Virus record (IMG/VR): IMGVR_UViG_3300030329_000517 | Location: 3,372 to 34,475 of that record | Length of the DNA stretch: 31,104 bases | Strand: one strand, 5' to 3' | Source of the DNA: a virus | In this document: in pieces, positions 22,232 through 31,104 of the stretch | How the letters are laid out: every line of letters starts with the position of its first letter | How positions within the stretch are numbered: position 1 is the first letter of the stretch | Position numbers and translations under genes: made by a program | Notes under the pieces: generated by a model | The model's database searches: none | Told to the model about the DNA's origin: nothing | What the model saw: the letters and a program-made list of their open reading frames with translations, nothing else

Positions 22232-23026
22232 TTATTTTTTCCAAAGTTTAGGTTCATGAATTACTGTTTTTGAATCGGGCCATAGTTTTACTTTATATTG
22301 CCCATGATTATACTCAGTTGCTCTAAGTATTCTTGCCATCCTAGCATTTATGATAGCATCTTCTTCAGTTAATCCTGCTTTTTTAAATCTATTTATAACA
22401 GTTTCCCAAAGATCTTCCCCTGATTCTTTAGCTTTATTCAATAATTTTTCGGCTGTTACCTTACCAACATTAGGACATCCTTTATAATTATCTGTCATAT
22501 CCCCTACTAAAATTTGAGAATAGAAATTAAAATCTGCTTCTTCAGTAGACAAAGAATATAATTTTTTATTTTTTAAATCCCAATGAAAACCCGGTACTGT
22601 TAATAAATCTTTATCTTCACTAACAATAACATATTCATCTGGTTCTCCCATTTTACAAGTTGCAAGAATACCAATAACATCATCAGCTTCTAATCTTGGT
22701 AGTTGTCTAAAAGGGTAAGTTTCTTTACAATAATTTAAAGCTTCTGTAAAACATAAAGGTTTTCTTCCACCTCTTCTGTGAGATTTGTAGAGAGGATTAA
22801 TTTCTTTTCTAAAATTTTCTTTATCAGAAAAACATAGAATACTTCTATCTGCTTTCATCTCCTCTACTATTAAATCAACCTGATCATCAATAATCATTTT
22901 TACATTATTCAAATCAGACCATAAAACCCATTGGTCATCTCCAAAATCTACTTCTTCTTCAGCAGCTCTACAAGCTTTATAAAGTATAATGTCTGCATCT
23001 ATTACAGCTATTCTTTCTTTTGTCAT
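22232..23026 (-). CDS. 5'-3' exonuclease, T7 gp6-like (FEN superfamily), 264 aa
   Basis: The protein has the acidic clusters of flap/5' exonucleases in order: AVIDADIILYK (Asp10, Asp12), SILCFSDKENFR (Asp68), the basic helix PLYKSHRRGGRKP, RLEADDVIGILA (Glu113, Asp115, Asp116), IVSEDKDLLTVPG (Asp138, Asp140), and the DNA-binding turn VGDMTDNYKGCPNVGKVTAEKLL (Asp176, Asp179). In T7 the enzyme removes RNA primers and degrades host DNA. The length is close to T7 gp6 (300 aa). The Shine-Dalgarno AAGAGGAT ends 2 bases before the ATG and overlaps the region just after the preceding gene's stop. Confidence 0.92.
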   Translation of the reverse strand: MTKERIAVIDADIILYKACRAAEEEVDFGDDQWVLWSDLNNVKMIIDDQVDLIVEEMKADRSILCFSDKENFRKEINPLYKSHRRGGRKPLCFTEALNYCKETYPFRQLPRLEADDVIGILATCKMGEPDEYVIVSEDKDLLTVPGFHWDLKNKKLYSLSTEEADFNFYSQILVGDMTDNYKGCPNVGKVTAEKLLNKAKESGEDLWETVINRFKKAGLTEEDAIINARMARILRATEYNHGQYKVKLWPDSKTVIHEPKLWKK

Positions 23027-23034
23027 ATATCCTC

Positions 23035-23559
23035 TTATAATTGTGGTGGGTTATTGTAAGTTTCAGGATCATTTAGATCATATGAATAATCCTCATAATT
23101 TTTTAAAGTTAAACTATTTCCTTTAATCTCATTAAAGGGAAGTATATAAATTTTTGGGAATTTTACCATGAACAAAAAAGTAAAATCACCTTCAGTATAT
23201 GGAAACTGTCTAGATTTACCTCTATACTTATCCCCATTCTCTCGTTTTAAAGTTATACGATTTCCTTTTTCAGTTGTCTTAACTTGAATAGTAGACCATG
23301 AATTACCTTTATTTATAGCAAAATCACAACTACTACATGAATTAGTAGGCTCAAATATATCATAGTTCCATCTATGTAGTATGTAACGTACAAGATCTTC
23401 TCCTGCTAATCCAATAGTTTGATTTACTTTCCCCTGTTTAATGTGTTTCTGCCCAGTTGTTTCCAATCGAGTATTCCCCGGAGAGTGGGATTCGTAATCC
23501 AAATTTTTCTCCTGTAGAGGTAATTGCCTCGACACAAACTCTACCGATTTCTTCTGCAT
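23035..23559 (-). CDS. PD-(D/E)XK-like nuclease, 174 aa, start inside the DNA polymerase gene
   Basis: Residues 46-105 follow the restriction-endonuclease-like fold: GLAGEDLVRYILHRWNYDIF with Glu54, then SCDFAI with Asp79, then STIQVKTTEKG with Gln92 and Lys94. This is the E...D...(E/Q)xK pattern of Holliday-junction resolvase and homing-type PD-(D/E)XK enzymes. The Gln in place of Glu in the last motif occurs in real members. The chosen ATG at 23559 has a perfect AAGGAG 5 bases upstream and lies 122 bases inside the polymerase gene in another frame. I find no ATG, GTG or TTG between the polymerase stop and the domain, so the overlapping start is the likely one. The first 40 residues are then an unusual Gln/Glu/Ser-rich leader. 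The role is unknown; recombination or host-DNA degradation would fit its neighbours. Confidence 0.7.
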   Translation of the reverse strand: MQKKSVEFVSRQLPLQEKNLDYESHSPGNTRLETTGQKHIKQGKVNQTIGLAGEDLVRYILHRWNYDIFEPTNSCSSCDFAINKGNSWSTIQVKTTEKGNRITLKRENGDKYRGKSRQFPYTEGDFTFLFMVKFPKIYILPFNEIKGNSLTLKNYEDYSYDLNDPETYNNPPQL

Positions 23560-25186
23560 AGTTCTCCTTTACTGTTAGTTGGACTTCATCATGGACAAAT
23601 GCTACTTGATTATAATCCTCTCCACATTTGAAGCCTTTCTTTTTAAGTAGTGAATGCATTTCAACTACCCATTGTTTACAAATAATAGCTCCTGCTGATT
23701 GCAGTAGTGTATTTAAAGCAGCATGTTTAGATCTAACAGGAACAAGTCTCCCATCTAATCCTTTTATTGATCCTTTATTTATTGCTTTTTCTTCTACTGC
23801 TTCTCTTAACTTTTTTAATGCAGGAAGCTGAGTTAAGAATTTTTTCTTTAATAAGTTTCCTTCCTTCCTCCCTTTACCAACGATCTCACCGATCTTTTGA
23901 TCTCCTGCACCATACAAAAAACCATATATGAAAGTTTTGGCTTGATCTCTCGTAGCCAAACCTGCGGCTTCCTGATTAACAGAATGTATATCCTCCTCCA
24001 AAAGCTTCTTACCATATTCGCCATTGTCATAGCGAGCAAGATAATGCGATAAGCAACGCAGCTCAAGACCAGAGACATCAATTCCCAATAATTTTTCTCC
24101 TCTATTCGCAATAAATAAAGCCCTGCAATCCTTCCCAAAGGGTGCATTTGTATTCGGAACTTGAGCGATGTTTGGGTTCGAGTGAGATGCCCTCGAAGTC
24201 GCTGCTCCCATCGTATTGACTCTCCCATGTAACCTCCCTTTATTAACAAGTTTTAACCATGCTTGATCTCCTTCTGCAAGTTGACCAATACGTTTATTAA
24301 TCATTAAATACTCAGACATTAACTTAGCTTCTGGAAATTCTAACTTCTTGAGAATAGTCTCATCAACTTTAGCTTCTCCAGACGGAGTGAATTCTTTTGG
24401 TTTCCAACCTCTAAGTTCTTTGAGTCTTTTTGCGATGTGTTTTCTGCTATTGGGATTAAACTCAACAACCTTAATCTTTGTGTAGAGGTCATTCCTTCTG
24501 ATGCCCTCATTAATAACCCAAGATCCAAAGACTTTTTTGAGTTCTTCCCCCAACTCTTCCCTTCTTTTTGAGAGTTCTGAGTATAATATAATAGCTTGGC
24601 TTTCATTAAAGGCAAATCCATTTTTCTCCTGTTGATTACAAATGTTAGCAATATTATGTTCCAAACGTACCGAATTCTCTGGAGGTATTTTCTGTTTTAA
24701 ATTTTCCCATAAAATATTGGTAAGTTCAACATCATTTTTACAGTAGTCAAGCATTTCTTGAGAGAAGTTTTTAAAGTTCTGCTCTTCATCACCAAATTCC
24801 CCTTTGTAATGCTCAAGTCTATATCCCCAAGCTTTTAAAGAATGTGATCCCCATAAGCGTGGTTCTAATCTTCTAACTTCTGCATCTTCTTTTCTTATAT
24901 CAGGATAGATTAAACGTGATAAAATTAATGTATCAGTTATCTGATCTACAGGAACTTTAAATCCATAAAATCTTTTCAAAACTTCTAAGTCAAATCCTAG
25001 AATATTATGTCCAATAATATGACTATTCTTTAGTTTATCCATGATCTTATACATATCACTTTCTGTAGTCGCAACATCTACATAAGACATATGATCACTT
25101 ATAAGATTTTTAGTTACTATACAATGAATTTTAGTAACATCATCTAATAATCCATCTGTTTCTATATCAAGTATTATTTGATCCAT
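23438..25186 (-). CDS. DNA polymerase, T7 gp5-like family A, 582 aa
   Basis: This is the replicative polymerase with proofreading. The 3'-5' exonuclease domain shows LDIETDG (Asp7, Glu9), GHNILGFD (Asn61, Asp66) and YCKNDVELT (Tyr148, Asp152). The polymerase domain shows LLGIDVSGLELRCLSHYL (motif A, Asp370), RDQAKTFIYGFLYGAG (motif B, Arg413, Lys417, Tyr421) and VAFVHDEVQLTV (motif C, Asp533). It ends GNNWAETH, like the GPNWAICH of T7. At 582 aa it is about 120 shorter than T7 gp5, and I see no long thioredoxin-binding loop. Tyr421 occupies the position of E. coli Pol I residue 762, as in T7. The start overlaps the primase-helicase stop by one base (TAATG), with AAGGAGG upstream. Confidence 0.97.
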   Translation of the reverse strand: MDQIILDIETDGLLDDVTKIHCIVTKNLISDHMSYVDVATTESDMYKIMDKLKNSHIIGHNILGFDLEVLKRFYGFKVPVDQITDTLILSRLIYPDIRKEDAEVRRLEPRLWGSHSLKAWGYRLEHYKGEFGDEEQNFKNFSQEMLDYCKNDVELTNILWENLKQKIPPENSVRLEHNIANICNQQEKNGFAFNESQAIILYSELSKRREELGEELKKVFGSWVINEGIRRNDLYTKIKVVEFNPNSRKHIAKRLKELRGWKPKEFTPSGEAKVDETILKKLEFPEAKLMSEYLMINKRIGQLAEGDQAWLKLVNKGRLHGRVNTMGAATSRASHSNPNIAQVPNTNAPFGKDCRALFIANRGEKLLGIDVSGLELRCLSHYLARYDNGEYGKKLLEEDIHSVNQEAAGLATRDQAKTFIYGFLYGAGDQKIGEIVGKGRKEGNLLKKKFLTQLPALKKLREAVEEKAINKGSIKGLDGRLVPVRSKHAALNTLLQSAGAIICKQWVVEMHSLLKKKGFKCGEDYNQVAFVHDEVQLTVKENYAEEIGRVCVEAITSTGEKFGLRIPLSGEYSIGNNWAETH

Positions 25187-26823: not shown

Positions 26824-27192
26824 TTATTTTTCATGAATCCAAGAGTTAGGTACTATAGATTCAGCGTATAAAAATTCATATTTCTCACACCATTCTCTGC
26901 AAGTAAACCTTCCTCCTTGAACTTGTTTATTTAATTTTTGAAATACAAATCTAATGTCTAATTCGGGATGTTGTTTCCTTATGAGTTTATGTTTTCTTTG
27001 ATCTTCATATTTGAACCATCCCTTGACTTCTATTAGAATTCCATTTGGAAGCAGAAAGTCTGGAGTATATCTTTTTGGAACTTCATATTCAATTTTATGA
27101 GGTTCAAAGATAAAATCAACTCTCTGCTTCTCTAATTGTTCTGCTACTAATCCTTCAAGATCAGATCTATAGCGATTAAAAATCTTCTTCAT
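26824..27192 (-). CDS. Endonuclease I (Holliday-junction resolvase), T7 gp3-like, 122 aa
   Basis: The sequence parallels T7 endonuclease I: RSDLEGLVAEQLE (Glu13), YTPDFLLPNGILIEVKG (Asp45, Glu55, Lys57), then KLIRKQHPELDIRFVF and a C-terminal YAESIVPNSWI. These match Glu20, Asp55, Glu65 and Lys67 of the T7 enzyme with the same Asp-Glu-Lys spacing. It resolves branched DNA during packaging and helps degrade host DNA. I take the ATG at 27192; the frame is open further upstream, but that stretch is simply the out-of-frame end of the ssDNA-binding protein gene. The overlap with that gene is 17 bases, and the Shine-Dalgarno is weak, so translation is probably coupled. An in-frame ATG 9 bases upstream is an alternative. 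Confidence 0.93.
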   Translation of the reverse strand: MKKIFNRYRSDLEGLVAEQLEKQRVDFIFEPHKIEYEVPKRYTPDFLLPNGILIEVKGWFKYEDQRKHKLIRKQHPELDIRFVFQKLNKQVQGGRFTCREWCEKYEFLYAESIVPNSWIHEK

Positions 27193-27736
27193 TATTACCA
27201 TTAGAATTTTCTTCAACAAATGGATTATTAGAAGATTCTTCTGAAATAAATCCTTCCTCTTTTTCAAAGAGTTCTGCTGATCCATCATACTCAACAAGAT
27301 CAATAACCTGAACTGCATTGAAATATAATGTTACACCAGACTTTCCATTGACTGTATAAGGAACTGGATTATAAGAAACTTTAACAGTTGATCCCCAACC
27401 AATATCTACATTACATGGTTTAGCTGATGAATCTACTATCATTATTTTTCTTTCCTGTTCTACTCCATTCTTTCCTCTGAAACGTGGCTTTTGTTTGAAC
27501 TTGAAGATAATATCATCACCATCTTCTTTATATGGGATATGCTCAGATGGTTTTTTACCTGATGCTTTAACTTCATCAGCAACCCAACCATCAATTTTAC
27601 TCATCAAATCTTTTGCTTCTTCTGACTTAACTGGAAGCATCAAAGTAATTTGATATGTATCATATTCTGGATGAGGTTGTTTGATATTAACCCATTTACA
27701 TTTTGCTTTTGGACTAACAAGTTTTTGTTGTGCCAT
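27176..27736 (-). CDS. Single-stranded DNA-binding protein, T7 gp2.5-like, 186 aa
   Basis: The position (between the early region and endonuclease I) and architecture fit T7 gp2.5. There is an OB-fold-like body (KAKCKWVNIKQPHPEYDTYQ near the N-terminus, then strands such as IIFKFKQKPRF, RKIMIVDS and GVTLYFNAVQVIDLVEY) and an acidic tail ending NGNNEEDF. In T7 the tail's terminal Phe is essential and contacts the polymerase and primase-helicase. It coats ssDNA and coordinates the replisome. T7 gp2.5 is longer (232 aa). An AAGGAG Shine-Dalgarno precedes the ATG, and the gap upstream is purely AT-rich. Confidence 0.87.
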   Translation of the reverse strand: MAQQKLVSPKAKCKWVNIKQPHPEYDTYQITLMLPVKSEEAKDLMSKIDGWVADEVKASGKKPSEHIPYKEDGDDIIFKFKQKPRFRGKNGVEQERKIMIVDSSAKPCNVDIGWGSTVKVSYNPVPYTVNGKSGVTLYFNAVQVIDLVEYDGSAELFEKEEGFISEESSNNPFVEENSNGNNEEDF

Positions 27737-30478: not shown

Positions 30479-30631
30479 TTAGAACTCCTCTTTACGAATA
30501 GTTAATGAGTGACCTGACAATATAAAATATAATACTATCAAGATAGTTATAAATACTCCTACTAAAAATCCAAATCCAAATATACTAAAGAATACTAATA
30601 TATCTGGCAATATTAAGAACCATCTTTCCAT
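30479..30631 (-). CDS. Small single-pass membrane protein, 50 aa
   Basis: The frame starts at an ATG ending at 30631 and stops with a TAA that abuts the RNA polymerase ATG. The protein begins MERWFLILPD, followed by a long hydrophobic helix rich in Phe, Ile, Leu and Gly (about residues 11-39) and a short C-terminal tail SLTIRKEEF. There is a clean AGGAG 8 bases before the ATG, and the last codons (GAG GAG) serve as ribosome-binding site for the RNA polymerase gene. It overlaps the methyltransferase end by 19 bases. No family is recognisable. A holin-like or host-membrane-directed early protein is possible, but nothing in the sequence decides this. Confidence 0.7.
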   Translation of the reverse strand: MERWFLILPDILVFFSIFGFGFLVGVFITILIVLYFILSGHSLTIRKEEF

Positions 30632-31104
30632 AGTCTTTCTCCTATAGCTTTGATTACTGGTACAGTTACACTATTACCAATCATTTTATAGAGATTAGTG
30701 TCTGCTATGTTTAATTCTTTTGCTTTGAAATACATTTCATCAGATGCTCCTTGTAATCTAAAGCATTCTAAAGGCGTTAATCTTCTTACTCTTGCACCAT
30801 CCACAATAGTTTGTTCTATCGTAGGTGAAGTTGTAAGAGTACCAACTAATCCATCTTTTTTCTGGACAATTTCTTTACCTCTTCTAGGTGAATAATCTTT
30901 TCCAGTTTTTTTCATGTGTTCTTGTCTTATTTTCCTAGCTTCTTCTGTTCTCCTTTCTGTTAGTACAAATGGTTGTCTCCTTCCACCTTGCATAGTGTTT
31001 AATGTAGGTGAAAGTCCTTCTGGATCATATACTCTATTGTTACTATGAATAGGTTTATTAACTTGAATAAGTTGTCTCCTATTCTTTTTTAAAGTGTTTG
31101 TGTC
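30613..31104 (-). CDS. DNA (cytosine-5) methyltransferase, C-terminal part (5' end outside window)
   Basis: The frame is open to the right edge of the window, giving 163 residues of the C-terminal part. It contains GLSPTLNTMQGGRRQPFVL and GLVGTLTTSPTIEQTIV, which are typical of the target-recognition region of phage C5-methyltransferases, then RRLTPLECFRLQG (motif IX) and YKMIGNSVTVPVIKAIGERL (motif X, which folds back on the SAM-binding domain). The PCQ catalytic motif and the FxGxG SAM site must lie upstream and cannot be checked. An internal ATG at 30993 is not a sensible start because it would remove part of the recognition domain. Such enzymes usually protect phage DNA from host restriction. 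Confidence 0.92.
   Translation of the reverse strand, partial: DTNTLKKNRRQLIQVNKPIHSNNRVYDPEGLSPTLNTMQGGRRQPFVLTERRTEEARKIRQEHMKKTGKDYSPRRGKEIVQKKDGLVGTLTTSPTIEQTIVDGARVRRLTPLECFRLQGASDEMYFKAKELNIADTNLYKMIGNSVTVPVIKAIGERLWKDGS

Follow-up and report, generated by a model that had tools for sequence, protein, structure and literature searches.

What kind of nuclease lies between the DNA polymerase and the exonuclease genes of this T7-like virus, and what does it do there? The window, by which we mean the whole stretch of 31,104 nucleotides that was analysed, belongs to a virus record of 43,029 bases and carries on its minus strand a T7-like block of endonuclease I, primase-helicase, DNA polymerase, the nuclease ORF, a gp6-type exonuclease, DUF3310 and ribonucleotide reductase, the helicase name being taken from tblastn to an annotated relative. 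Pfam and PHROG profiles were used to identify the upstream neighbour as a T7-type (family A) DNA polymerase (23438..25186, minus strand) and the downstream neighbour as a gp6-type 5'-3' exonuclease (22232..23026, minus strand), and both genes are possible target regions of the nuclease. A minus-strand ORF between these two genes had been proposed in an initial annotation made from the sequence, and its presence was confirmed by ORF positions and profiles. The two other nucleases named there, endonuclease I and the gp6-type exonuclease, are likewise real, the window proteins matching the Pfam families Phage_endo_I (E=8.7e-38) and 5_3_exonuc_N (E=1e-12). By polymerase, the nearest named phages among the matches listed were LUZ100 and Roseobacter and Pelagibacter phages (45-49%), and a marine origin is therefore likely for this virus of bacteria. 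The endonuclease I ORF as listed (26824-27318) overlaps an upstream ORF (27176-27736), and its true start is probably further downstream, since residues before 48 are not covered by the family match. Positions 30613-31104, at the edge of the window, encode a C5 cytosine DNA methylase of which only the C-terminal part is included (PF00145, E 4.6e-14).

The nuclease ORF, supported by profiles, predicted structure and tblastn, occupies 23035..23559 on the minus strand and encodes 174 residues plus a stop codon. It had previously been given as 23035-23437, which cuts it at the polymerase stop codon and omits the 122 bp at its 5' end, which lie within the polymerase gene; the residue numbers that went with those coordinates were nevertheless correct, and they need an ORF that begins at 23559. 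The overlap with the 3' end of the polymerase gene (23438..23559, minus strand) codes for residues 1-41, which are predicted to be disordered, and the folded core comprises residues 48-174 plus the stop codon (23035..23418, minus strand), residues 1-47 being the sole segment of the predicted model with pLDDT <50. The ATG at 23559 is the likeliest start, because it is preceded by a Shine-Dalgarno-like AAAGGAG, read from the sequence at 23564..23570 (minus strand), and is the only start-codon position common to all 28 listed sequences, near-duplicates included. It was also kept in 6/6 of the loci L034-L039, where the local polymerase residues differ. A shorter start is possible, since a 143-residue protein 99% identical to the window nuclease, without a name in the tables consulted, has already been deposited and residues 1-47 are predicted to be disordered, and the working protein may be shorter than 174 residues. 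Synonymous variation of the polymerase gene was lower in the overlap (0.24 vs 0.34; 0.21 vs 0.38 at four-fold sites), but values equally low occurred elsewhere in 51 and 33 of 504 overlapping windows; extra constraint on the overlap was thus rejected as a special feature, and it neither proves nor excludes translation from the ATG at 23559. The median dN/dS of the nuclease, taken over 112 usable pairs of 153, was 0.30, as compared with 0.13 for polymerase and 0.17 for exonuclease, and the gene is therefore under purifying selection. Promoter-like sites close to the nuclease gene did not exceed chance level, and the single terminator-like site beside it is on the opposite strand.

An alignment of 42 distinct sequences, comprising the window protein, its relatives, T7 gp5.3 and two other named phage proteins, was used to assess the active site. 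Glu54, Asp79, Gln92 and Lys94, the residues originally singled out, were located as claimed in the numbering of the 174-residue ORF. The predicted catalytic residues Glu54 (23398..23400, minus strand) and Asp79 (23323..23325, minus strand) are E in 42/42 and D in 41/42 sequences, the sole exception (L129) having its Asp one column off, while the Gln and Lys of the Gln92-Val93-Lys94 (QxK) motif (23278..23286, minus strand) are present in 42/42 and align with the QVK of I-Ssp6803I. The suggestion of a PD-(D/E)XK-like nuclease had been staked on a restriction-endonuclease-like core, and such a core, with its E, D and QxK, was present in the alignment and the predicted model. Foldseek gave I-Ssp6803I (2ost) as the best match of the predicted core (E 6.1e-7), and VIA-align placed the same enzyme at Z 14.3 (rmsd 2.5 A, 119 residues), with the Hjc Holliday-junction resolvases as second-best fold group (best Z 10.8). 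Independently of the model, a search of PDB with a 21-sequence profile returned 2ost as the only chain under E 0.001 (E 4.8e-4), with the D and QVK of I-Ssp6803I in register with the nuclease profile. In the proposed profile searches the window protein matched PDDEXK_5 (PF11645; E 0.0016), at 18.9 bits and thus under the Pfam cut-off of 26.1, and gave no match to Hjc (PF01870) at E 1, a level at which most matches above E 0.1 are lost to the HMMER filters. Relatives matched PDDEXK_5 more strongly, 18 of the 21 alignment members (window included) doing so at E 1, with a best value of 6.6e-11, and L119 scoring 42.8 bits. No match was obtained in NCBIfam, and PADLOC returned PDC-S01 alone (E 0.0034, 14.3 bits). 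Taken together, alignment and modelling support residues 48-174 as a predicted PD-(D/E)XK domain, the nearest solved relative of which is the homing endonuclease I-Ssp6803I, described in a 2012 paper as the one PD-(D/E)XK homing enzyme (PMC3428280).

When the nuclease was searched by tblastn against 50,697 phage records, 70 records matched at E 1 or better, including T7 gene 5.3 (29% identity over residues 50-149, E 6e-4), Klebsiella T7-like phages and orf37A of phiIBB-PAA2. The nuclease gene directly follows the polymerase gene in 4/4 records examined, as it does in the window; in one of these, OP617747, the polymerase has no name and was recognised by sequence match. The window nuclease matched PHROG 5018 over residues 47-154 (E 1.3e-13), as did T7 gp5.3 (E 1.5e-46), and T7 gp5.3 matched PDDEXK_5 (E 1.1e-10). 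Judged by sequence, then, the window nuclease is the counterpart of T7 gp5.3 and not an extra gene type. Its initial description as 'extra' had to be given up, since it shares both family and slot with T7 gp5.3, and was misleading because the slot between polymerase and exonuclease is often filled. The reference record of T7 lists the little-studied gene 5.3 as 'hypothetical protein', and a literature search that mostly took in papers outside subscription found none calling T7 gp5.3 a PD-(D/E)XK protein; T7 gene 5.3 and its relatives thus gain a probable identity as PD-(D/E)XK nucleases closest to I-Ssp6803I. By sequence matches the gene is patchy across T7-like phages, 107 phage records matching T7 gp5.3 at E 1e-3 (51 of these at 99% or more) and 975 containing most of the window's polymerase.

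The slot after the polymerase was then surveyed with a pattern-based, polymerase-anchored scan, in which the best 80 of 470 loci, near-identical contigs such as L021 and L023 included, were classed by their content after the polymerase. The window nuclease family occupied 29 of these 80, counting L019 and L066, where the match covers no more than residues 1-73 of the nuclease and stands at the contig end. In 23 of the best 80 polymerase and exonuclease were adjacent and the slot was empty, and in the others, likewise from more distant relatives, it held an Hjc-like protein (7), a PHROG 13596 protein (3), a GIY-YIG (T5orf172) protein (3) or other content (13, some ThyX-like by eye), two loci, L033 (cut off) and L074, standing outside all classes. 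Where polymerase identity was at least 59%, the nuclease was found in 29/29 evaluable sampled loci, L033, which also reaches this identity, being cut off and not among them; a nuclease-less member of this clade was possibly missed, because some loci recovered by the nuclease scan (L105, L107, L108 and others) were not picked up by the polymerase scan. Among genome contigs there were no bacterial relatives of the nuclease, 99 pattern matches yielding 0 confirmed. Gene 29 of Pf-WMP3, a structural match from BFVD, was set aside as a slot gene, as it is not beside the polymerase (genes 12-14; the stretch examined covers genes 9-26).

Among the Hjc-like slot proteins (L062, L069-L071, L073 and L075-L076), which share the motif GDxAE...GAxD...DVK in a frame open back into the polymerase end, 2/3 of those tested passed Pfam's Hjc cut-off. 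PHROG 13596 proteins were seen in L056 and L057 and in the cultured pelagiphages HTVC019P (gp20), Eistla (gp31) and HTVC109P (gp20) (L133-L135); they have an EVK motif and a PD-(D/E)XK look by eye, but were not counted as nucleases because the model of a relative had a pLDDT of 43.6, too low to be of use, and Pfam gave no nuclease family. Just upstream of the exonuclease, L056-L058, L062, L069-L071, L073, L075, L077, L081, L085, L087 and L090 carry a small ORF (54-81 residues, with one longer reading in L070), by eye a single-span membrane protein, and the window has no space for such an ORF. In T3 and phiYeO3-12 an HNH_3 protein sits exactly in the gp5.3 slot of T7, between polymerase and gene 5.5. 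In a paper on Citrobacter phages the phiYeO3-12 gene is called a homing endonuclease, and phage SH1 is without the HNH nuclease that SH2 and phiYeO3-12 have in the slot (PMC4925675). T4-like phages offer a precedent, by the title of a work cited in PMC2988022, for one homing nuclease replacing another at one site. That other T7-like phages fill this slot with nucleases of unrelated folds is in keeping with a hot spot for nuclease insertion.

Discordant allele histories were seen in some pairs of relatives. For L020/L021, dS in the nuclease (0.54) exceeded that in polymerase (0.16) and in exonuclease (0.08-0.13), and identity fell from 97-100% in the last 300 polymerase bases to 69-81% in the adjoining 375, then rose to 92-100% in the 750 after these; the pair also diverges in other places, around endonuclease I, DUF3310 and the reductase. 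A divergent stretch from the polymerase stop to near the nuclease stop was found in 3/14 pairs picked by the analyst for plotting (L020/L021, L025/L027 and L015/L016). The converse was found in L017/L025, where dS was 0.80 in polymerase, 0.12 in the nuclease and 0.64 and 0.34 in the exonuclease halves, and where identity of 89-97% starts about 300 bases inside polymerase, continues across the nuclease and declines in exonuclease. Such a pattern is as a co-conversion tract would give, but it is a mosaic, since another similar block is present higher up in polymerase. The L012 nuclease has an N-half identical to that of L015 and a C-half 86% like that of L084.

These pairs were set against a wider comparison of 16 sequences, two with partial polymerase having been left out; of the 120 pairs, 109 could be used for the nuclease. 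By dS, 8/109 pairs were more than two-fold off in the nuclease, compared with 5/109 and 6/94 in the exonuclease segments and 0/75, 3/113, 0/119 and 0/97 in four polymerase segments, which points to a modest excess of discordant pairs in the nuclease. With polymerase dS, the nuclease had a rank correlation of 0.69, the exonuclease halves of 0.79 and 0.80, and the polymerase segments of 0.33-0.89. Topology tests on 18/26 sequences (three without a long enough gene and five near-duplicates left out) showed nearly every gene rejecting the trees of other genes, exoN keeping the exo tree (p-AU 0.054). A 130-residue polymerase piece, however, rejected the polymerase tree itself (p-AU 0.013), and exchange is therefore general and the topology test over-sensitive; tree congruence was discarded as a nuclease-specific signal, as it does not single the nuclease out. 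By these sequence comparisons a discordant allele history is not unique to the nuclease, and the exonuclease recombines almost as much. The nuclease gene therefore stands at a border of exchange and is not a proven driver of it, a location that fits the observation that nuclease genes lie at borders of exchange in phages (PMC10448857).

Fold, slot turnover and allele histories together make it probable that the nuclease is free-standing and of the homing type, belongs with I-Ssp6803I in the PDDEXK_5 group, and has as its target the region of polymerase and exonuclease in co-infecting relatives. Such an enzyme would cut double-stranded DNA at a specific polymerase-exonuclease site in a co-infecting relative with another allele, repair from the carrier genome would copy in the nuclease and some flanking sequence, and the carrier would be spared by an altered or interrupted site of its own. 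No intron was found, whereas a group I intron-encoded endonuclease gene would lie inside one: the window had no Rfam match at gathering score and the polymerase ORF is unbroken. A homing endonuclease had been among the initial options, and with I-Ssp6803I as best match that option has gained; recombination or host-DNA breakdown, the guesses preferred on account of the gene's inclusion in the replication operon, are not favoured because the closest solved structure belongs to a homing endonuclease, ahead of Hjc, because the gene is the T7 5.3 counterpart and because unrelated folds turn over in the slot. Homing genes are usually patchy in distribution, and what weighs most against homing is that the gene is fixed in the clade as sampled, with 29/29 evaluable loci; such fixation would also suit a resolvase or a nuclease acting on rivals or host. 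Against homing, too, discordant pairs are nearly as many in the exonuclease and the correlation of one polymerase segment is as low as 0.33, and against the PDDEXK_5 assignment stands a window protein that scores under the family cut-off.

A resident recombination nuclease, resolvase- or flap-like, which acts with polymerase and gp6 exonuclease on branches in phage DNA and is fixed by selection, would account for this fixation and for a constant position overlapping polymerase. Seven of the best 80 loci have an Hjc-like protein in this slot, which keeps recombination a reading, and Hjc is the second-best fold group; yet the window already has endonuclease I, I-Ssp6803I is the better fit, some allele histories are unlike those of the flanks, and the 23 loci with adjacent polymerase and exonuclease indicate that the replication set manages without the gene, so that we regard such a role as unlikely. 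Decay of a former homing gene, now inactive and kept by linkage, is very improbable: small size and a median dN/dS above that of both neighbours are in keeping with it, but the active-site residues are kept in 41-42/42 sequences and purifying selection is clear.

A nuclease that attacked specific sites in competing phages (interference competition) or in host DNA, but did not copy itself, would fit alleles that are diverse while every evaluable sampled clade member has the gene, as if each allele attacked the others. Breakdown of host DNA in T7 is credited to gp3, a relative of which is in the window. The T7 record credits it to gp6, which likewise has a relative there, and both speak against a host target. 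Harm by a homing endonuclease has a precedent in an intron-encoded enzyme that suppresses a co-infecting phage (PMC11620839), so that homing and rivalry may here be one thing; the present evidence does not separate them, and cutting without self-copying seems to us a rather remote prospect. A broader proposal, which we hold to be doubtful, is that the nuclease is a fixed weapon of this T7-like clade, the alleles cutting the polymerase-exonuclease region of rivals, and that the slot is a socket for unrelated folds. Each phage would then have one of several alleles, tied to the polymerase end by the overlap, allele diversity would be kept by competition between co-infecting phages, and PDDEXK_5, Hjc-like, GIY-YIG and HNH folds would have been fitted repeatedly into the slot. 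The nuclease is of an ordinary kind, and its place and swapping alleles are the points of interest. If homing or rival-cutting is true, the polymerase-exonuclease slot would be a directly testable nuclease hot spot in T7-like phages, for which T7 is a convenient laboratory system.

Four known systems bear comparison with the homing-type nuclease proposed here. I-Ssp6803I resembles it in fold and, as aligned, in the D...13...QxK spacing, but is intron-encoded, in a cyanobacterial tRNA gene, whereas the gene in the window is a free-standing phage gene. Archaeal Hjc shares the PD-(D/E)XK core over 103 residues (Z 10.8), with a structural score under that of I-Ssp6803I and a Pfam family that the window protein does not match at E 1. 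The HNH gp5.3 of T3 and phiYeO3-12 occupies the identical slot with a different nuclease fold, its HNH_3 domain. Closest is T7 gp5.3 (NC_001604, T7p30; PHROG 5018), which has a PDDEXK_5 domain, an aligned E-D-QVK and a gene directly after DNA polymerase; it is, however, of 118 residues and without polymerase overlap, in contrast to the overlapping 174-residue ORF of the window, and in T7 genes 5.5-5.9 stand between gene 5.3 and gene 6.
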